DNA from: Liolophura sinensis
Taxonomy: Eukaryota > Mollusca > Polyplacophora > Chitonida > Chitonidae
DNA: 64,000 nucleotides
Assembly: GCF_032854445.1 (NCBI RefSeq)
Contig: NC_088295.1
Coordinates: forward strand, 53,053,249-53,117,248
Reading direction: 5' to 3'
Shown: in pieces, positions 8,078 through 44,200 of the stretch
How the letters are laid out: every line of letters begins with the position of its first letter
How positions within the stretch are numbered: position 1 is the first letter of the stretch
Notes under the pieces: generated by a model
Databases searched by the model: none
What the model was told of the DNA's origin: nothing
What the model saw: the letters and a program-made list of their open reading frames with translations, nothing else
Made by a program: the position numbers and the translations under genes

Positions 8078-8402
8078 GAATGAGTGAGTGCTTGGGATTT
8101 AACGACGCACTTAGCAATATTTCAGTCCTATCACGATGAAGAGTCCCTAGAGTGCATGTATGTGTAATGTGCCTCCTTGTTGCAAGACAGATTTCCACCG
8201 CTCTTTTATCTGGTGCTGCTTCACTGTGACGACTTACCGAAGGCAAGTAAGCCACCCTGCCCGAGCCATTATACTGATACGCCAAGCGAAAAAGTTACAA
8301 CTTTCTCTTTCAAAGTCTAAAAAGGCTAGGATTGAACAGGATTGACCCTGAATCTACCACTCCTGAAGTGGAAGCTCTACCAGCTGAGCTATCAGGGCTG
8401 GT
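8078..8402 (-). mobile_element. Second tRNA-headed SINE family, full-length copy
   Basis: On the minus strand the head at 8400 reads GCCCTGATAGCTCAGCTGGT, a tRNA-like A box, followed by a B-box region. The body contains the TTTCCACCGCTCTTTTATC block (plus-strand reading) and the 3' end is a GAGTGAGTG run near 8080. A shorter copy lies at 42656-42927. Confidence 0.8.
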
Positions 8403-9730: not shown

Positions 9731-9937
9731 CAAAATGCTGGGAAAACATTTCTGTTGTACAACTTGCTGGTTGGTGTATTAGCTATGCATGGCTGCATGT
9801 AATATGTGAGAACTGAACTGTTGGTAATTTTTTTTAATTTATTTTAATTGTGTGAAAAAATGGGCATAGTAGAGTATAATATTTGCACAATATAAAAAAG
9901 AGAGGGGGAGAAGAGAAAAAAAAATTGTAGCACATTT

Positions 9938-10019
9938 AGTACGGGTGGGGTTTGAACCCACGCGGACTTACGTCCATTGGAACTTAAGTCCAACGCCTTA
10001 ACCACTCGGCCACCGTACT
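9938..10019 (-). tRNA. tRNA-Leu (anticodon UAA)
   Basis: Read on the minus strand, the 82-nt gene folds fully. The acceptor AGTACGG/CCGTACT forms 7 perfect pairs. The D arm has TGGCCGAGTGG (A box). The anticodon stem TTGGA/TCCAA encloses CTTAAGT with anticodon TAA. There is a long variable arm, as expected for class II leucine tRNAs. The T arm GTGGG/CCCAC has loop TTCAAAC (B box). The discriminator base is A. There is no intron and no encoded CCA. A run of T begins about 13 bases after the 3' end (minus strand), a Pol III terminator. The core matches metazoan tRNA-Leu(UAA) closely, so it is probably functional rather than a SINE head. Confidence 0.92.
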
Positions 10020-28104: not shown

Positions 28105-28276
28105 CTAGCTGGAGAAGGGCCTGAGGTGCTCCAGCTGGATCTCCAAGGCGATCCTCTGCTCCATCACCTCCTGTAGCTCCTGATTCAGCTCGCTGTTCAC
28201 ACGACACAGCATCGAGTTACGTTCACGGTGAGTCCTCAGAGCGAGCTGAATATCTCTCTTGTCACGACTGCCTTGC
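28105..28276 (-). CDS. REPS1: REPS1 exon 20, C-terminal coiled coil
   Basis: Reads RDIQLALRT-type helix, [20 protein letters not shown] and [13 protein letters not shown] before TAG at 28107-28105. This is the RalBP1-binding region in vertebrate REPS proteins. Confidence 0.96.
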
Positions 28277-31200
28277 CTGCCAAGAAGTACACTCTCCACA
28301 TTACAGTATACAGCTCAATTTGACACTACATATAACCAACTATAAATTCTTGGAATTTTTTTCATGGACACTATTTTCTCTGATCTATGACATGTAGAAG
28401 GGTGACGTGATTTATTGGTGAAAATTCATCTGGAGTTATGCGATTTGCCGTAAGTAGTTCTTCACCAACTTTAGAACAGCAGAGTTGGTCCAAAATTCCA
28501 GGAAATTACAACTGATTTACTGTAATATGTTTATTAAATTAAATTTATACCACTTTAACACCAAAAAAAGAATATTCTTATGTTTTTTTCAAATATGGCT
28601 TTATGGCTTGACACTTTCTTTTATTTAGCAAGAAATGTCTCTCCAAAAAGAGTTCAAATGAAGATTGAAGAAGTTTATTTTACCTATCACTGATAATGAT
28701 AACAATCTAGACAAAATATGGCATCTCTAAAAAATGACCAAGCACTAAGATAATGTGCTACTATGATAACCTCAATTTCAGAAAACAACATCCCACAAAG
28801 TGGTCTATGAACATAAATCATAGTCCCTCAATCTTCTCATACATTGTATCTGCCTTTGTCCTCAGAAAGCACTCATGTTTGGCATCACACAATTTAAATT
28901 TCTCATGAAAAAAAAGAAATAATAATAATCATGATGATGATGATAAAGAAAATTGCTAATGATGATGATGATGATGATGATGATGGTGATGATAAAGAAA
29001 ATTGCTTAAAAAAAATAATAATAATAATCATAATGATGAAGCGAATTGCTCGTAAGGGTGCTGCAGCTAGGATCTGAGACACTGTTTAACAGAATATATG
29101 TATGTATGGCATGTCTGTGTACTGGGCAGTACAATACCTGAGGGCTATAGAGGACTGTCGTGGCTTGTCCCTAGGCCCGGAAATCTCTTCCCTCTCTTGT
29201 GAGATGTCATCCTGTAATAAGTCAGGGTCCTCTTCTAGCACAGTCTTTACCTGTAATCAAACATGATGTCAGCATCACAATACAAGCCTCTGGGGGTCAC
29301 ACTCTCTGTCCCCAAATCATCACATGTGGTTTCATATTTCTGCACAGCCAAAAGAAATGGAAAAACAAGTCAAAATACATGTAGTATGTTTGTGTAAGAA
29401 CACAACAGGGACTAGAAAGTTCTGAAACCCCTCTTTCAGCATTTCAATGTCTTAAGCATGTATGACACAGAGTATGTGATATGAAGAAGAAAGGGAAAAC
29501 AAAGACAAGTAAAAATCATGATCATCAAAGCATTGACTGCTGCATGACTGCTTCGGCCTAATGGCTAGAGCATCCACCTCAAAATTGGGAGACTAGGGAT
29601 CAAACCCAGGTTCGGTCACATTAAAGACTTTTAAAAGTCGTACTTGTTGCTGCTTTGCTTGGCACCTGGCATTGAGAGTCTAGAGGAAGGAAAGACTGGT
29701 CCACGCGGTGTCAGTATCACGTGAGGTCAAAAATTCCAGAATCCTTATTTCTGTATCCACCTTCATGTTACGTTTGGCCTAAATCCATGCAAGCAATAAC
29801 CTAGCTAGCAATACATCAAGATGTTCTTTATATGGCAATTGTTTTCTCTGGAATTTGTGCTTGGACCATCCCTGCAGAGGTGCCCCATAGAAGCCCCATG
29901 CTGACATTCTTTACATTCCAGTCAGTCATAAGGTAAATGTACGTCAAGCTGACAAGCGCTTTGTGAGAGTGGATTTGCGAGTCATTTGTCTTCGCTACAT
30001 TACAAGCTGCAAGTTCAAGCCCAGTCAAGGAATTTGTCATTGTTCATGATTCATGAGAGCCTTGGTGACAAGCAATCAGCCATACTCTTGCTTATCTGTG
30101 TGCATGGCTAACATCACACATGAGAAAGTTCGAAAGTAACTGGCAAAAGGTCAACAACCATAAAAATGCCCGCCATCACGTAAATGAAAAATTTCTGTGA
30201 CATTAAACAAAATGCACACTGGATGTACTGAATCTGTGATACATGTTCCTTACTGGTTTGAGCCGACAGAATAATACCTATAATGCACAAGGGAGCAAAA
30301 ATCATCCTAATTTTATTAGAAATGGACAAAAATGGAAGATAACAACCTTTGTACATAGCAAGTCATGTACAAAGTTTCAATTCACAATAAGGAACACGTT
30401 TGAAAAAAAAAAAGTCTGGAAAACTGTCAGAATCCACTACAAGACGACCATAATTTCCATGACACCCCCCAACCACTGCCCCCCCCCCCCCAAAAAACAA
30501 ACAATGAAACTCAATTTTGATCTGTAACAACTCACTTTAGAATGCGTGCCATCTCCCAACCCAGCTCCAAGCTGTGGACCATCTGAAATAGAAGTGAAAT
30601 ATGGAAGGTGTAACATGAAGTACATGTATCCATAGGCAACCTCACAAGATACAATACAATATCACATGTATCGTGCATAAATCAACTGACTTCACACTAG
30701 TGTACACTGGTATACTTTCCATTCAAAATATTCTAAATTGAAAAATACATCATGGTTTCTGAAGAACCTAGTCCAAGATAAATATTATGGTGCACTTGCC
30801 TCACACTCATTTATCTCGTTTACATGATAGTTGTCAGGTAAGTGAGTGGAGAAAATTGAACAAACCTCAGGATAAAACATTCCAACAGAATACCTGACCA
30901 CATAACTCAGGGTAAAACATTCCAACAGGATACCTAACAACATAACTCAGGGTAAAACATTCCAACAGGATACCTGACCACATAACTCAGGGTAAAACAT
31001 TCCAACAGGATACCTGACCACATAACTCAGGGTAAAACATTCCAACAGGATACCTGACCACATAACTCAGGGTAAAACATTCCAACAGGATACCTAACCA
31101 CATAACTCAGGGTAAAACATTCCAACAGGATACCTGACCACATAACTCGGGGTAAAACATTCCAACAGGATACCTGACCACATAACTCAGGGTAAAACAT

Positions 31201-34200
31201 TCCAACAGGATACCTGACCACATAACTCAGGGTAAAACATTCCAACAGGATACCTGACCACATAACTCATGGTAAAACATTCCAACAGGATACCTGACCA
31301 CATAACTCAGGGTAAAACATTCCAACAGGATACCTGACCACATAACTCGGGGTAAAACATCCCAACAGGATACCTGACCACATGAGTCTGGATAAACATC
31401 CCAACAGGATACCTAACCACATAGCTCCGGGTAAAACATTCCAACAGGATACCTGACCACATAACTCAGGGTAAAACATTCCAACAGGATACCTAACCAC
31501 ATAACTCATGGTAAAACATTCCAACAGGATACCTGACCACATAACTCATGGTAAAACATTCCAACAGGATACCTAACCACATAACTCAGGGTAAAACATT
31601 CCAACAGGATACCTGACCACATAACTCAGGGTAAAACATTCCAACAGGATACCTGACCACATAACTCAGGGTAAAACATTCCAACAGGATACCTGACCAG
31701 ATAACTCAGGGTAAAACATTCCAACAGGATACCTGACCACATAACTCATGGTAAAACATTCCAACAGGATACCTGACCACATAACTCAGGGTAAAACATT
31801 CCAACAGGATACCTGACCACATAACTCAGGGTAAAACATTCCAACAGGATACCTAACAACATAACTCAGGGTAAAACATTCCAACAGGATACCTGACCAC
31901 ATAACTCAGGGTAAAACATTCCAACAGGATACCTGACCATATAACTCGGGGTAAAACATCCCAACAGGATACCTGACCACATAACTCAGGGTAAAACATC
32001 CCAACAGGATACCTGACCACATAACTCAGGGTAAAACATTCCAACAGGATACCTGACCACATAACTCAGGGTAAAACATTCCAACAGGATACCTGACCAC
32101 ATAACTCAGGGTAAAACATTCCAACAGGATACCTGACCACATAACTCAGGGTAAAACATTCCAACAGGATACCTGACCACATAACTCGGGGTAAAACATT
32201 CCAACAGGATACCTGACCACATAACTCAGGGTAAAACATTCCAACAGGATACCTAACCACATAACTCAGGGTAAAACATTCCAACAGGATACCTAACAAC
32301 ATAACTCAGGGTAAAACATTCCAACAGGATACCTGACCACATAACTCAGGGTAAAACATTCCAACAGGATACCTGACCACATAACTCGGGGTAAAACATT
32401 CCAACAGGACACCTGACCACATAACTCAGGGTAAAACATTCCAACAGGATACCTGACCACATAACTCATGGTAAAACATTCCAACAGGATACCTGACCAC
32501 ATAACTCAGGGTAAAACATTCCAACAGGATACCTGACCACATAACTCATGGTAAAACATTCCAACAGGATACCTGACCACATAACTCAGGGTAAAACATT
32601 CCAACAGGATACCTGACCACATAACTCAGGGTAAAACATCTCAACAGGATACCTGACCACATAACCCTGGGTAAAACATCCCAGCAGGATACCTGACCAC
32701 AAGAGTCGGGATAAAACATCCCAACAGGATACCTAACCACATAACTCAGGGTAAAACATTCCAACAGGATACCTGACCATATAACTCAGGGTAAATCATT
32801 CCAACAGGATACCTGACCACATAACTCAGGGTAAAACATTCCAACAGGATACCTAACCACATAACTCAGGGTAAAACATCCCAACAGGATACCTAACCAC
32901 ACAGCTCGGGGTAAAACATCCCAACAGGATACCTGACCATATAACTCAGGGTAAAACATTCCAACAGGATACCTGACCACATAACTCAGGGTAAAACATC
33001 CCAACAGGATACCTGACCACATAACTCAGGGTAAAACATTCCAACAGGATACCTAACCACATAACTCAGGGTAAAACATTCCAACAGGATACCTGACCAC
33101 ATAACTCGGGGTAAAATATTCCAACAGGATACCTGACCACATAACTCAGGGTAAAACATTCCAACAGGATACCTGACCACATAACTCAGGGTAAAACATT
33201 CCAACAGGATACCTGACCACATAACTCATGGTAAAACATTCAAACAGGATACCTGACCACATAACTCAGGGTAAAACATTCCAACAGGATACCTGACCAC
33301 ATAACTCAGGGTAAAACATCCCAACAGGATACCTGACCACATGAGTCTGGATAAACATCCCAACAGGATACCTAACCACATAACTCCGGGTAAAACATTC
33401 CAACAGGATACCTGACCACATAACTCAGGGTAAAACATTCCAACAGGATACCTAACCACATAACTCATGGTAAAACATTCCAACAGGATACCTGACCACA
33501 TAACTCATGGTAAAACATTCCAACAGGATACCTAACCACATAACTCAGGGTAAAACATTCCAACAGGATACCTGACCACATAACTCAGGGTAAAACATTC
33601 CAACAGGATACCTGACCACATAACTCAGGGTAAAACATTCCAACAGGATACCTGACCACATAACTCAGGGTAAAACATTCCAACAGGATACCTGACCACA
33701 TAACTCATGGTAAAACATTCCAACAGGATACCTGACCACATAACTCAGGGTAAAACATTCCAACAGGATACCTGACCACATAACTCAGGGTAAAACATTC
33801 CAACAGGATACCTAACAACATAACTCAGGGTAAAACATTCCAACAGGATACCTGACCACATAACTCAGGGTAAAACATTCCAACAGGATACCTGACCATA
33901 TAACTCGGGGTAAAACATCCCAACAGGATACCTGACTACATAACTCAGGGTAAAACATCCCAACAGGATACCTGACCACATAACTCAGGGTAAAACATTC
34001 CAACAGGATACCTGACCACATAACTCAGGGTAAAACATTCCAACAGGATACCTGACCACATAACTCAGGGTAAAACATCCCAACAGGATACCTGACCACA
34101 TAACTCAGGGTAAAACATTCCAACAGGATACCTGACCACATAACTCAGGGTAAAACATTCCAACAGGATACCTGACCACATAACTCAGGGTAAAACATTC

Positions 34201-37200
34201 CAACAGGATACCTGACCACATAACTCAGGGTAAAACATTCCAACAGGATACCTGACCACATAACTCAGGGTAAAACATTCCAACAGGATACCTAACAACA
34301 TAACTCAGGGTAAAACATTCCAACAGGATACCTGACCACATAACTCAGGGTAAAACATTCCAACAGGATACCTGACCACATAACTCGGGGTAAAACATTC
34401 CAACAGGACACCTGACCACATAACTCAGGGTAAAACATTCCAACAGGATACCTGACCACATAACTCATGGTAAAACATTCCAACAGGATACCTGACCACA
34501 TAACTCAGGGTAAAACATTCCAACAGGATACCTGACCACATAACTCATGGTAAAACATTCCAACAGGATACCTGACCACATAACTCAGGGTAAAACATTC
34601 CAACAGGATACCTGACCACATAACTCAGGGTAAAACATCTCAACAGGATACCTGACCACATAACCCTGGGTAAAACATCCCAGCAGGATACCTGACCACA
34701 AGAGTCGGGATAAAACATCCCAACAGGATACCTAACCACATAACTCAGGGTAAAACATTCCAACAGGATACCTGACCACATAACTCATGGTAAAACATTC
34801 AAACAGGATACCTGACCACATAACTCAGGGTAAAACATTCCAACAGGATACCTGACCACATAACTCAGGGTAAAACATCCCAACAGGATACCTGACCACA
34901 TGAGTCTGGATAAACATCCCAACAGGATACCTAACCACATAACTCCGGGTAAAACATTCCAACAGGATACCTGACCACATAACTCAGGGTAAAACATTCC
35001 AACAGGATACCTAACCACATAACTCATGGTAAAACATTCCAACAGGATACCTGACCACATAACTCAGGGTAAAACATTCCAACAGGATACCTAACCACAT
35101 AACTCAGGGTAAAACATTCCAACAGGATACCTGACCACATAACTCAGGGTAAAACATTCCAACAGGATACCTGACCACATAACTCAGGGTAAAACATTCC
35201 AACAGGATACCTGACCACATAACTCAGGGTAAAACATTCCAACAGGATACCTGACCACATAACTCATGGTAAAACATTCCAACAGGATACCTGACCACAT
35301 AACTCAGGGTAAAACATTCCAACAGGATACCTGACCACATAACTCAGGGTAAAACATTCCAACAGGATACCTAACAACATAACTCAGGGTAAAACATTCC
35401 AACAGGATACCTGACCACATAACTCAGGGTAAAACATTCCAACAGGATACCTGACCATATAACTCGGGGTAAAACATCCCAACAGGATACCTGACTACAT
35501 AACTCAGGGTAAAACATCCCAACAGGATACCTGACCACATAACTCAGGGTAAAACATTCCAACAGGATACCTGACCACATAACTCAGGGTAAAACATTCC
35601 AACAGGATACCTGACCACATAACTCAGGGTAAAACATCCCAACAGGATACCTGACCACATAACTCAGGGTAAAACATTCCAACAGGATACCTGACCACAT
35701 AACTCAGGGTAAAACATTCCAACAGGATACCTGACCACATAACTCAGGGTAAAACATTCCAACAGGATACCTGACCACATAACTCAGGGTAAAACATTCC
35801 AACAGGATACCTGACCACATAACTCAGGGTAAAACATTCCAACAGGATACCTAACCACATAACTCAGGGTAAAACATTCCAACAGGATACCTGACCACAT
35901 AACTCAGGGTAAAACATTCCAACAGGATACCTGACCACATAACTCGGGGTAAAACATTCCAACAGGACACCTGACCACATAACTCAGGGTAAAACATTCC
36001 AACAGGATACCTGACCACATAACTCATGGTAAAACATTCCAACAGGATACCTGACCACATAACTCAGGGTAAAACATTCCAACAGGATACCTGACCACAT
36101 AACTCATGGTAAAACATTCCAACAGGATACCTGACCACATAACTCAGGGTAAAACATTCCAACAGGATACCTGACCACATAACTCAGGGTAAAACATCTC
36201 AACAGGATACCTGACCACATAACCCTGGGTAAAACATCCCAGCAGGATACCTGACCACAAGAGTCGGGATAAAACATCCCAACAGGATACCTAACCACAT
36301 AACTCAGGGTAAAACATTCCAACAGGATACCTGACCATATAACTCAGGGTAAATCATTCCAACAGGATACCTAACCACATAACTCAGGGTAAAACATTCC
36401 AACAGGATACCTAACCACATAACTCAGGGTAAAACATCCCAACAGGATACCTAACCACACAGCTCGGGGTAAAACATCCCAACAGGATACCTGACCATAT
36501 AACTCAGGGTAAAACATTCCAACAGGATACCTGACCACACAACTCAGGGTAAAACATCCCAACAGGATACCTGTCCACATAACTCGAGGTAAAATATCCC
36601 AACAGGATACCTGTCCACATAACTCGGGGTAAAACATCCCAACAGGATACCTGTTCACATAACTCAGGGTAAAACATCCCAACAGGACACCTGTCCACAT
36701 AGCTCAGGGTAAAACATCCCAACAGGACACCTGACCACATAGCTCGGGGTAAAACATTCCAACAGGACACCTGACCACATAGCTCGGGGTAAAACATTCC
36801 AACAGGATACCTGACCACATAACTCAGGGTAAAACATCTCAACAGGATAACTGACCACATAACTCAGGGTAAAACATCTCAACAGGATACCTGACCATAT
36901 AACCCTGGGTAAAACATTCCAACAGGATACCTAACCACATAGCTTGGGGTAAAAGATTCCAACAGGACACCTGACCACATAGCTCGGGGTAAAACATTCC
37001 AACAGGATACCTGACCACATAACTCAGGGTAAAACATCTCAACAGGATAATTGACCACATAACTCAGGGTAAAACATCTCAACAGGATACCTGACCATAT
37101 AACCCTGGGTAAAACATCCCAACAGGATACCTAACCACATAGCTTGGGGTAAAAGATTCCAACAGGACACCTGACCACATAGCTCGGGGTAAAACATTCC

Positions 37201-38208
37201 AACAGGACACCTGACCACATAACTCAGGGTAAAACATCCCAACAGGATACCTGACCACATAACTCAGGGTAAAACATTCCAACAGGATACCTGACCACAT
37301 AACTCAGGGTAAAACATCCCAACAGGATACCTGACCACATGAGTCTGGATAAACATCCCAACAGGATACCTGACCACATAACTCCGGGTAAAACATCCCA
37401 ACAGGATACCTGACCACATAACTCAGGGTAAAACATCTCAACAGGATACCTTACCACATAACTTGGGGTAAAACATCCCAACAGGACATTGGACACAGAA
37501 CTCGGGGTAAAACATCCCAACAGGACTGGACACGGAGCTCGGGGTAAAACATTCCAACAGAATACCTGACCACATAACTCGAGGCAAACCATCCCAACAG
37601 GACACCAGACACAGAACTAGGGGTAAAACATCCCAACAGGATCCCCGACACAGAACTCGGGGCAAACCATCCCAACAGGACACTGGACAGAGTTTTCTGG
37701 GCAAATCATTCCAACAGGACACCAGACACAGTACTTTGGGCCAACCATCCCAAAAGAACACCTGACACCGCCTCACTTAAAGTCTTGGCCTAACCATCCT
37801 TAGAAGGGTCCACTGGCTATGGGCCAGACACAGAACAGGGCACTGGCTATGGGCCAGACACAGGACACATGGGCTGGTGAATTTTTGTCAGGGACAGCTG
37901 TGCCACATACATGTAGAAGTTCTTATATCATCACTAATGAGAAAAAACGTTTAAAGGGCACACCAGGAGCCTGGTGTACTTACCCGTGTGATCTGTATGT
38001 GGTACTTCAGTCATTTGTGGGGTGACCTGAAAGTGGCAATTTATAACCATATACATTTAGTAGTAATCTGCATTCTCCCTCAACATAACACATCAGTTCA
38101 TGCACACGCCCACAAACATACATGTAATACTGTACAACCTGACTTCGTGCTGTTAGTTGCAGGTCTATCACATTAAAGATTAGGGAAGCTTGTCTATATA
38201 TGTGTGTG

Positions 38209-38254
<46 letters not shown>

Positions 38255-41200
38255 TTGTTAATTTAATAATGATCAACTGCAAATACTTCTTATCTCTATG
38301 AATAACTAATTAACAGTGAACGAGCGAACGAAAGTTGGTAATTCCATTATGGTATCAACACATAAATGAGAAATGACTAGAATATAAAAGAAAGATTATG
38401 AAAAACAGACAAACCTTTGCAGCTGACCATTAAATGTGGAAATAATGTTAGGTGTTCATGCTTAGAAGCTTTAATAACAGGAGGAAAAACAAAACTGCAA
38501 ATAAGTACACAAGATGCTGCATTAATAAATTCAGCCACTAATTAATTTACATCTCTTTCCAGAATGAATATACCACTATAAAAGTTGGGGAAAACATAAA
38601 TCACATGCAGAACGGGATGAGAATGGATGTAACCTTTCCCACAGTATCAGTCCCTTAACAAAAAAAAAAAAAAAAAAAAAACTCACTGGTGTTTGATGGA
38701 AGTCCAGAGATTTGGCTCTACGATGCCTCTCTAGTGTGCTCTGCCCACTGAAAGACTTTGTCTCCACAGGTTCTTTCTCCGTGGACAGGATATTGAGAAC
38801 TTCTTGTGACGGAATCGGTTCAAAACGCTTTAGCTTGGCAGCTTCGACTTTGACTGGCCTATCACAATCTACAGGTCCAAAAGTGAATTTCTCACTCGGT
38901 TTCTTAAGACCCTTAAATAGCAATGAACACGAGTGTTTTCAGGCATTAAAGATACTCCGTAAAACATTAAGACGTTATAACGGACAAGGACATCTGACCC
39001 AAGGACGTTCCAAACAGCTCTGCAGTGAAACACACAGAATGAAACAGAAACTAGGGCGCTGGCCACAATGTTACAGTAACAACATGAACCTTTTGGAGCA
39101 GTTTAAAAGGTACTGATGACCTGCATTTTATACACATTCAAAGAAATGTTTTACAATCTATGTACAATACATGTACTGATTATACGGGCTGTCAAGTAAA
39201 GATCAGCTAAATGAAACGATATCTCCAATGATGTACACCTTACCCTACACGTACACATTAAACAGGCATATTATTCTCACTGTACAAAACCAAAATACAA
39301 GCTACAAAAACACACACTAACACGCAATAACTCATATTTCCAAAAACAATTTATCTTTGTTAGTTTAACTAATGATTCACCACAGAAAAGCTTCTGGCAT
39401 ATGAGTGATAACATCTGAACCTTTATGGTATACATCACAATCATAATTGACTCACAATCATGATAATACATGTATTTTGAATTATTTATATCACTGGCCG
39501 AAATCGATAACCAATGAATACAAATCTGCAGCGATGCCCCCAACCCTCTCTGCCCCTCACACAATGTCATTTCAATGAGAGCCTTCATCTTGAAGTTCTA
39601 ATACAACAGCTTGACAATCACATCAATAATTCTGAGCCCTCTCAGCTCCCCACCCTCACCTAATGTCATTTCAATCAGGGACATCATTCTGAAACTCTAA
39701 TACAACAGCTTGACAATCACATCAATGATTCTCAACTCTCTCAGCTCCCCACCCTCACACAATGTCATTTCAATCAGGGACATCATTCTGAAACTCTAAT
39801 ACAACAGCTTGACAATCACATCAATGATTCTCAACCCTCTCAGCTCCCAACCCTCGCCCAATGTCATTTGAATACGAGACATCATTCTGAAACTCTAATA
39901 CAACAGCTTGACAATCACATCAATGATTCTCAACTCTCTCAGCTCCCAACCCTCGCCCAATGTCATTTCAATCAGGGACATCATTTTGAAACTCTAATAC
40001 AACAGCTTGACAATCACATCAATGATTCTCAACTCTCTCAGCTCCCAACCCTCACCCAATGTCATTTCAATAAGACACATCATTTTGAAACTCTAATACA
40101 ACAGCTTGACAATCACATCAATGATTCTCAACCCTCTCAGCTCCCAACCCTCACCCAATGTCATTTCAATAAGAGACATCATTTTGAAACTCTAATACAA
40201 CAGCTTGACAATCACATCAATGATTCTCAACTCTCTCAGCTCCCAACCCTCACCCAATGCCATTTCAATAAGAGACATCATTTTGAAACTCTAATACAAC
40301 AGCTTGACAATCACATCAATGATTCTCAACTCTCTTAGCTCCCAACCCTCACCCAATGTCATTTCAATAAGAGACATCATTTTGAAACTCTAATACAACA
40401 GCTTGACAATCACATCAATGATTCTCAACCCTCTCAGCTCCCAACCCTCACCCAATGTCATTTCAATAAGAGACATCATTTTGAAACTCTAATACAACAG
40501 CTTGACAATCACATCAATGATTCTCAACCCTCTCAGCTCCCAACCCTCACCCAATGTCATTTCATTAAGAGACATCATTTTGAAACTCTAATACAACAGC
40601 TTGACAATCACATCAATGATTCTCAACCCTCTCAGCTCCCAACCCTCACCCAATGTCATTTCAATAAGGGACATCATTTTGAAACTCTAATACAACAGCT
40701 TGACAATCACATCAATGATTCTCAACTCTCTCAGCTCCCAACCCTCACCCAATGTCATTTCAATAAGGGACATCATTTTGAAACTCTAATACAACAGCTT
40801 GACAATCACATCAATGATTCTCAACTCTCTCAGCTCCCAACCCTCACCTAATGTCATTTCAATAAGGGACATCATTTTGAAACTCTAATACAACAGCTTG
40901 ACAATCACATCAATGATTCTCAACCCTCTCAGCTCCCAACCCTCACCTAATGTCATTTCAATAGGGGACATCATTTTGAAACTCTAATACAACAGCTTGA
41001 CAATCACATCAATGATTCTCAACTCTCTCAGCTCCCAACCCTCACCCAATGTCATTTCAATAAGGGACATCATTTTGAAACTCTAATACAACAGCCTGAC
41101 AATCACATCAATGATTCTCAACTCTCTCAGCTCCCAACCCTCGCCCAATGTCATTTCAATAAGAGACATCCTTCTGAAACTCTAATACAACAGCTTGACA

Positions 41201-44200
41201 ATCACATCAATGATTCTCAACCCTCTCAGCTCCCAACCCTCGCCCAATGTCATTTCAATAAGAGACATCATTCTGAAACTATAATACAACAGCTTGAGAA
41301 TCACATCAATGTGTAATATAACAACTCAAAATATCAGATTCTAGACGTATGCACTGTGTAACTCAAAAAGCAAGCAAACCAAGTGAATGACTGAGCAATG
41401 AATTAATCAATCGTGCAGGAAAGCAGGAATATGGATTCTTCACATACATGCATCCATGCTGACCGGGGGTGGTGCATAGGTTTGGGGTGGTGGTGTTTGG
41501 TGAGGGTTACCATCCAGGTGACAAGAAAAACTAAATTGTTTTATGTAGAGCATATACGTGTAGTAATCTCAAGGTAGAATCTTGATACAGAGCCTGATAA
41601 TTAGTAGATAATTAAAAATTGGAAGCAGCAAAATAACTGTGATTCTTATATCTGTTTGTCTTATATGCATTCTGTAAATTATTGACTTATCTGAAAACGT
41701 TCATTTGGTGTCTAGTTAAAGACGCTATATTGGAGATTTTGGACAAATATAAATCAGTGTAAATTTAATCGAATTTTAGTTATCAGTTATGGTAACTTTT
41801 TACAAAACATCAGCCTCTTCTGTACACATGAAAATATCAACTTTTTCAAACTTCAGAATCATGATAACACTATAAATAATAAAGGTATGCATCTGATATT
41901 TACTGAAAGAAAACAAATTCTTGGAAATATAGAAAATTTGCTTTGATTAGTGAATATGAATTTTTGGCCAAAAATCTCTGGTATAGCCTAACTGAATGAA
42001 TAAACTGATGGTGAAAAGGTCTGCCAGCAACCTGTGGATGGTCATGGGATTCCCTTGGGCTCTGGTCTCCGCCCACCATAGTCCTGGCCACTGTCGTATA
42101 AGTGAAATATTCTCGTGTACGGCTTAAAACACCGATCAAATAAACAAATAAATAAATAAATAAATAAATAAATAAAATCGGTTAATGGATAGTATTACAA
42201 TACCATATAAAGAGGGCCTGACCAATGACTCACATCTTTTGGAGACATTCGTGGTGGAACGGCAGGAGGAGGCATCAGTCCACCTGCAAATAGATAACAT
42301 TCAGGTTATAATTAGGATTTCCTCCAAAATTCATGAAAATAATGAGTAAACTAATTGCGTGTGGAAGTTGGGCAACCCCTTAAAATTCATGCAATCAAGA
42401 AATATTTATAGTATTTATGTCAAAATATATCAGGATTTACATTATATTTACTTTTGTTGATGACCTTTGCTCTTACAAAGGAAGCATTCTGGAATTATTG
42501 CGAAAGCTGTGGCCCATACCAGTTTGTGCACTCAGCTATGTTAAAATCCACTTCAATTTGGAAAAATCAACCTATCAAACCTCCACAATTTTGTCAAAAA
42601 TGGACACTTAATCTGCAACTTGCTACAGTGAAGGAATGAATGTAAACTGTTTGGAGTGAGTGAGTGAGTGAGTCCCTATTTCCACCGCTCTTTTATCTAG
42701 TGCTGCTTCACTGAGACGCCTTACTGAAGGCAAGTAAGCTGCCCCACTCGAGCCATTATACTGATACGGGTTAACCAGTTGTTGCACTATCCCCTTCATG
42801 CTGGACGCCAAGCGAGGAAGTCACAACTTCCTTTTTTAAAGTCTTGGGTGTGACTCGACCCAGGATTGATCCTGGATCTACCACTCCTGAAGTGGACACT
42901 CTACCAACGGTGCTATCCGGGCAGGTAGAACTTTTTTGAAAATAGTCTGGAAAACTGTTTTGTGACGAATTGATCAACTGACAGAGAGACTGAACAATAG
43001 ATAAGGTGTACACCTGTAATCGCCTCTGTTAGTGGTCAAATAAAACTTATAGCCATGGCTTAGTATGGTGAAGATTTTACAGAAAATCTGCTAATGGTTT
43101 AGACGTTTAATTATCTATGTGTCATACTTAACAGGCAATGATGAATGATTTATAGGCTTTCTTTTTTGACTAAACAATATGTATAAATTTTTTTTTCATT
43201 GTCCCATGAAAGTTCTACATCATACTCGAGAATAGTTCACTTCAATTCTATTAGAACAATCAGACTTCTGGCTGAACGAAAACAGAATGAGCCCGTGTGA
43301 GCCCACTGCACCTCAACAGGTACCTGGCCAAACCTGTTAGAGGCTGATTTGGAGATGTGGTCTCACTGCTCAAGCGCTCGGTTGTTTTCCTAAACAACCC
43401 ACTATACAGCTGGGCTGTCAAGGACCCAACATATAACATAAGTCTTTCTTCCCAGGATGTAACCATAAATTCCTCAGATGACCAAAAATTTAACAGCAAT
43501 GAGCTCCACATCATTATGAAACTGTTTAAAAAATCAGACATTTTTCTTTGTAGACACACTTTAGACTTACCATCAATCTTTAGCTTGAGGTCCACAGACA
43601 CACTTCTGTTATGCATAGTGGGTCGTGGAGGGAGTTGCGGGGGTGCTGGGCTGGCCCCTACCCCAGAGGAGGTGGATTCCAGGAGTGAAGGGGCTGGCAC
43701 AGTTGTGGGCAGGTCACTGCGTACTGAGGGGCTGGTCAGAGGCTCGTCTGGACTGCTGGGCTGTACTATGGCAGGCTGACTAGAGGGTTGTAGGGGAGGT
43801 GGCTGAAGCTGACCAGGTAATGTGGCTGTAAAAGACACACCAGAAATCAAATGTATACTACAGAACTGAAACCAAACAACTGTCAAGGTCATTTTCATTA
43901 AATAACTATCACTCCTTTTGACCTAAACACACAGATGTGGTTTGTTACTGATGCAGACAGCCCCAACAAAACAGGCTCTGTATCAGGAACGACTCAGAGG
44001 GAAGTTAACTGGCCAAACACCGGTCAGTTGTATCGCACTAGTAACAGAAACCAAACCTAACTTAAAAGTTTCTTAGCACTGTATCAATCTGATTTAAAAA
44101 ATAATACTTTACTGTTAACATGTAGACAACAAACACTGACGACAAATTACAGGGCCATTGATGACTACTATAAAGCTGATCATACAGGAAACACAATCTT

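Follow-up and report, generated by a model that had tools for sequence, protein, structure and literature searches.

Irregular duplications of unit blocks in a probable single-locus minisatellite within an intron of Liolophura sinensis

A 6.9-kb array of 40-bp units in Liolophura sinensis carries rare variant units that recur at long intervals, and a sequence-only reading of the locus had interpreted this as centromere-style higher-order structure inside the intron of an endocytic adaptor gene. The question raised by this locus is whether such a pattern reflects a centromeric type of organisation or the growth of a minisatellite. We analyzed the array within a stretch of 64,000 nucleotides (the window) and in the genome assembly. 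With a probability of about 0.87, we consider it to be a single-locus minisatellite (VNTR) in a REPS1-like intron, grown by repeated out-of-register exchange or break-repair, at times dozens of units at once. The block structure and the position in the intron of an endocytic adaptor gene were retained from the earlier interpretation; the centromere-style label was not.

Unit, genomic copy number and predicted host gene

Minisatellites, or VNTRs, are made of head-to-tail units of roughly 10-100 bp at one locus. Using TRF and wrap-around unit decomposition, we counted ~172 whole 40-bp units in head-to-tail arrangement, with a mean distance between units of 2.96 (a difference of ~7% on average) and a 3′ edge whose decay begins at ~37343. 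A search for the 40-mer elsewhere in the genome, as the sequence-only reading had called for, returned 146 matches to the consensus with up to three mismatches in the 609-Mb assembly, and the same number, 146, was counted in the window. Searches of the genome give lower bounds and may skip common words, and more diverged copies could lie elsewhere. At up to three mismatches, this lower-bound search revealed no other locus with consensus-like units in the assembly. Within the one assembly sampled, the array is a minisatellite both by its head-to-tail units and by its single locus. An origin from a dispersed repeat or a family of arrays is disfavoured by this equality of counts. The left flank had one full-length match in the assembly, in addition to seven short partial ones, so that no second haplotype copy was seen there. 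Besides 28 matches within the focal locus, the 3′ edge had a single distant counterpart, on C9 (68% identity, E 3.6e-6). The array sits within a 96-Mb contig.

The host gene is predicted to be REPS1-like and to lie on the - strand. When two - strand ORF pieces were joined, the part between them being left out, the best PDB match was the EH domain of REPS1 (1fi6, E 5e-26), followed by a partner of RalBP1 (1iq3, E 2.8e-20). One ORF piece alone passed the cut-off for Pfam EH (E 7.2e-6), while six other presumed REPS1-like pieces compared with Pfam gave one sub-threshold match and five none. The last exon, encoding the C-terminus, matched no curated Pfam family above cut-off; its coiled-coil-like end presumably resembles the C-terminus of REPS1. 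As predicted from the sequence, the reading frame is continuous from 38687 through the array-bearing intron and the next intron to the stop (Table 1). The array-bearing intron measures 9,436 bp, is in phase 0 and is filled to 73% by the array.

Several other features were observed in the window. TRF rows cover 20.7% of it, and 0.7-35.8% of 12 other 10-kb stretches, which makes this genome very minisatellite-rich. A 99-bp array (17.8 copies, 96% match) lies near the focal array at 39554-41311, and a 97-bp array in L011 scored only 23 against it. An exon of a Rab/Ras-family GTPase was detected at 995-1438 on the + strand (Pfam Ras, E 8.5e-31). At gathering thresholds, Rfam returned nothing across the window besides two tRNA matches on the - strand, at 8328-8398 (31.4 bits) and 9937-10019 (63 bits).

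Table 1. Coordinates, within the window, of the array, its duplicated blocks and the neighbouring exons of the predicted host gene.
Feature	Position	Strand	Basis or remark
Last coding exon, coiled-coil-like C-terminus, stop TAG	28105..28276	-	Frame continuous across both junctions
Exon that follows the array intron; acceptor TTTGATTACAG, ending at 29251	29138..29250	-	Intron phase 0 on both sides
Predicted REPS1-like exon that precedes the array in the gene; donor CCA/GTGAGT at 38687/38686	38687..38914	-	5′ edge approximate, acceptor not settled
40-bp minisatellite array, consensus CTCAGGGTAAAACATTCCAACAGGATACCTGACCACATAA	30866..37766	+	TRF; wrap-around unit decomposition
Older block I (49 units), counterpart of block II from 32945 on	30986..32944	+	Unit alignment
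Block II, lengthened by the later 39-unit duplication	32945..36502	+	Unit alignment
39-unit (1559 bp) tandem duplication, copy 1	33185..34743	+	Differs from copy 2 by 2 substitutions over its 39 units
39-unit (1559 bp) tandem duplication, copy 2	34744..36302	+	Unit alignment
5-unit (200 bp) duplication, copies 36783-36982 and 36983-37182	36783..37182	+	Copies differ by 2 substitutions over 200 bp
Degenerate 3′ edge of the array; first unit is a copy of the 39-bp landmark unit	37343..37766	+	Unit variant lists

Landmark units, nested duplications and their probable order

The 39-bp landmark unit CATGAGTCTGG was found at 31381, 33340, 34899 and 37338, with steps of 1959, 1559 and 2439 bp, and the landmark AAGAGTCGGG at 32701, 34700 and 36259, with steps of 1999 and 1559 bp; neither has another + strand site in the window. 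All seven coordinates had been given exactly by the sequence-only reading, and both landmarks bear out the 1559-bp step that it proposed between the second and third blocks. This step (39 x 40 - 1) is valid only between blocks 2 and 3; blocks 1 and 2 are separated by 1959/1999 bp, equal to 49 or 50 units minus one base. Within the array, ACTACA occurs at 33935 and 35494 only, with the same spacing of 1559, and the counterpart unit of the first block, at 31945, does not carry the change; the variant is private to blocks 2 and 3, as had been claimed.

To compare unit order with chance, units were named by their variants and their order was set against that of shuffled units. At lag 39, we observed 50 identical unit pairs versus 19.4 expected from shuffling (z 9.2), and 1000 shuffles yielded at most 39 such pairs at any lag. 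The next best lags were 49 (z 5.3), 89 (z 4.8) and 2 (z 4.7). The longest run of identical units, starting at 33544 and at 35103, comprised 18 units, compared to a maximum of 8 in 200 shuffles. In the 300-shuffle comparison with other arrays (below), lags 1 and 5 were strong too (z -6.7 and -6.4), a signal that we ascribe partly to the diverged 3′ region. A random order of variants, named earlier as the outcome that would speak against higher-order structure, is far from what the shuffles indicate, and the unit decomposition likewise supports a structure in blocks.

Three duplications were resolved in the array, one of 49-50 units, one of 39 units nested in it and one of 5 units. With one 39-unit copy left out, 49 units of block I could be paired with units of block II; one unit was missing, 12 substitutions separated the pairs, and the alignment score was 24 versus at least 72 in 200 shuffles. 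With the other 39-unit copy, and with the five final units of the block omitted (45 units), 44 units paired with 9 substitutions and a score of 36, versus at least 61 in shuffles. The older duplication is ~0.6% diverged, and the blocks as a whole are 99.4-99.9% alike. Two of these observations go beyond the earlier reading: the block homology extends to 30986, in the fourth unit, leaving the three leading units of the array unpaired in the alignment, and the 5-unit duplication is a separate one. The 39-unit segment joins the tail end of block I to block II, so that it must have arisen after the 49/50-unit duplication and in a different register. From the map we infer that the 49-50 units were duplicated first and the 39 units later; the 5-unit event has no place in this order, and the map gives no dates.

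An assembly error in this youngest, 39-unit duplication is possible, through the same reads being placed twice or a mis-joined haplotype, and the copies indeed differ by only 2 bases in 1559 bp. However, those two substitutions do exist, and the outer flanks of the duplication match poorly, with 5, 7, 2, 1 and 2 differences in the five units on the left and 1, 4, 1, 4, 6 and 2 in the six units on the right. The right boundary of copy 2 is uncertain by ~1 unit, the next unit pair differing by 1 base. The 96-Mb contig in which the array is embedded and the left flank, without a second full-length copy in the assembly, also argue against an artefact, and the older, 0.6%-diverged block duplication could hardly be created by assembly error. 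Overall, we consider an artefact unlikely. Under the minisatellite reading, the tandem 40-bp units would have undergone exchange or break-repair out of register again and again, and some of these events would have copied dozens of units together; the molecular mechanism may be unequal exchange between sisters or homologues, or synthesis-dependent copying.

Unit order in other arrays and in a neutral model

The comparison set comprised twelve 10-kb stretches at arbitrary positions, in which arrays with at least 10 copies were analyzed with 300 shuffles. Ten arrays were obtained, three of them clipped by the stretch end. Unit order was significant (p 0.003 or less) in three (in L004, L011 and L014); a fourth, in L010, reached p 0.017, and the six others p 0.09 or more. 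Among the six other arrays of the window with at least 10 copies, one reached p 0.017 (lag 1) and two 0.053 and 0.063, and shuffling revealed nothing in the remaining three. Two further arrays were found by search: the one on C9 gave p 0.18, and the one on C11 (L016:3375-5118) exhibited an order of its own, at a lag of 11 units (z -4.4, 0/300 shuffles). The focal array possesses the strongest order signal (0/300 shuffles) and is by far the longest. Since 7/10 comparison arrays and the C9 array miss p 0.003, strong block order is not universal, although those arrays are much shorter.

We also simulated mutation together with random block duplication and deletion, in six settings of 60 runs each. 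A best z of -7 or lower was obtained in 30-95% of the runs per setting; as this z is the best over all lags, long lags are not isolated by it. The observed mean unit distance falls between those of two settings with a mean block of 10 (1.57 and 4.15), for which the median longest runs were 27 and 19.5, compared to the 18 observed. A crude, growth-biased neutral model of block duplication would thus be sufficient to give comparable order, and it speaks to sufficiency only.

The minisatellites on C9 (37 bp, L003:4565-5604) and C11 (40 bp) share with the focal units a CAGGGT(T)(A/T)AA(A/G)CATCCCA-like core, a likeness that may be due to chance given the number of arrays in this genome. One could suppose that the three arrays form one minisatellite family with a CAGGG-T-TAAAACAT-CCCA-like core, one that arose from a single source or that a shared, recombination-prone core keeps active; if so, the block duplications would be the footprint of that core. 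Pattern searches gave 38 matches for a 22-base C9 pattern (0 for its reversed control), most on C9 and 9 on C11, with single matches elsewhere at one C6 place and two C1 places; 68 matches for a 21-base pattern versus 8 in the control; and at least 169 for a 22-base focal pattern versus 4. At four single places outside C9 and C11 (L017-L020), TRF detected arrays in L018 only, two small and unrelated-looking ones. When the consensus units of 29 arrays were compared (406 pairs), focal-C9 scored 33 and C9-C11 35, C9 and C11 having been chosen by search, and one unselected, unlinked pair reached 28; focal-C11 scored 18, compared to a 95th percentile of 19. In shuffled-unit controls, focal-C9 gave p 0/300, yet a 42-bp array of the window also gave p 0.01. 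The upstream flank of the focal array matched neither the C9 nor the C11 locus, and its downstream flank matched only a poly-T on C11 and, at a simple repeat, a short stretch on C9. Beyond their arrays, the C9 and C11 loci have several stretches in common (37-178 bp, 72-94% identity). None of these lies at an array edge, and we took them for dispersed repeats. In our view, a shared family is unlikely.

The array could also be a functional intronic element, its length tuning, for example, the splicing or transcription of the REPS1-like gene. It occupies most of an intron between coding exons, and an intronic VNTR of human WDR7 is termed a disease modifier in the account given in PMC10373352. 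However, many other arrays are present in the window and in the arbitrary stretches, and we regard such a role as very unlikely. We infer that the array is without function.

Relation to centromeric repeats and to known VNTRs

In centromeric higher-order repeats (HORs), one multi-monomer unit is repeated many times in constant register, over tens of kb or more and outside genes. A centromere-style array, homogenised in register and perhaps acting as a (neo)centromeric or heterochromatic seed, could account for multi-unit blocks so alike built from units so different, but it is almost certainly not what we observed: there are just two or three unequal, irregular blocks, the 39-unit event does not keep the register of the 49/50-unit one, and the steps between landmarks are not constant. 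We rejected the claim on this register mismatch and copy number. The extent of the array, 6.9 kb in all and inside an intron of a coding gene, is not that of such a satellite either, and the claim is weakened further by the count of consensus-like units in the focal intron alone (up to three mismatches) and by the ordered minisatellites found elsewhere in the genome. As in alpha-satellite, blocks of variant monomers are more alike between than within them; as described in PMC2588610, however, alpha-satellite has a repeating fixed HOR unit, extends up to several million bp and is correlated with centromere function, features that the focal array does not have.

Closer parallels to the minisatellite reading are found among human VNTRs. 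HORs have been reported in human non-alpha-satellite arrays. One of these arrays, at Xp22.33, comprises 18 kb of a 61-bp VNTR and contains irregular HORs of 1.6 and 2.5 kb; for certain megasatellite families, unequal crossing over is presumed (PMC2588610). That array and ours both combine minisatellite units, irregular higher-order blocks of similar size and a complex arrangement, whereas the human one is pseudoautosomal and the focal one is shorter and intronic (PMC2588610). In the human minisatellite MSY1, changes in repeat-block length and conversion are described (PMC2599865). The 69-bp VNTR of WDR7 is likewise an intronic array of a long unit (PMC10373352, PMC10502081), differing from the focal array in gene and unit; the likeness concerns the long unit and the intronic position. 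We recognised no published description of the focal array in a literature search. By analogy, its pattern is of the same kind as the published irregular VNTR HORs and the MSY1 block changes. These VNTRs, the unit order in 3/10 other arrays and in the C11 array, and the neutral model give shared support to the minisatellite reading.

Partial growth by copying large repeat blocks is ordinary for a long minisatellite, and the fitting label should be that of a single-locus minisatellite in an intron with irregular block duplications. In this array, the nested block duplications of a long minisatellite are well resolved and can be read cleanly; otherwise it is ordinary. It also carries a caution, since landmark variants within one array do not make that array centromere-like. 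In a minisatellite-rich genome, where TRF covers ~21% of the window, such arrays could be used as length markers or to stress-test assemblies.
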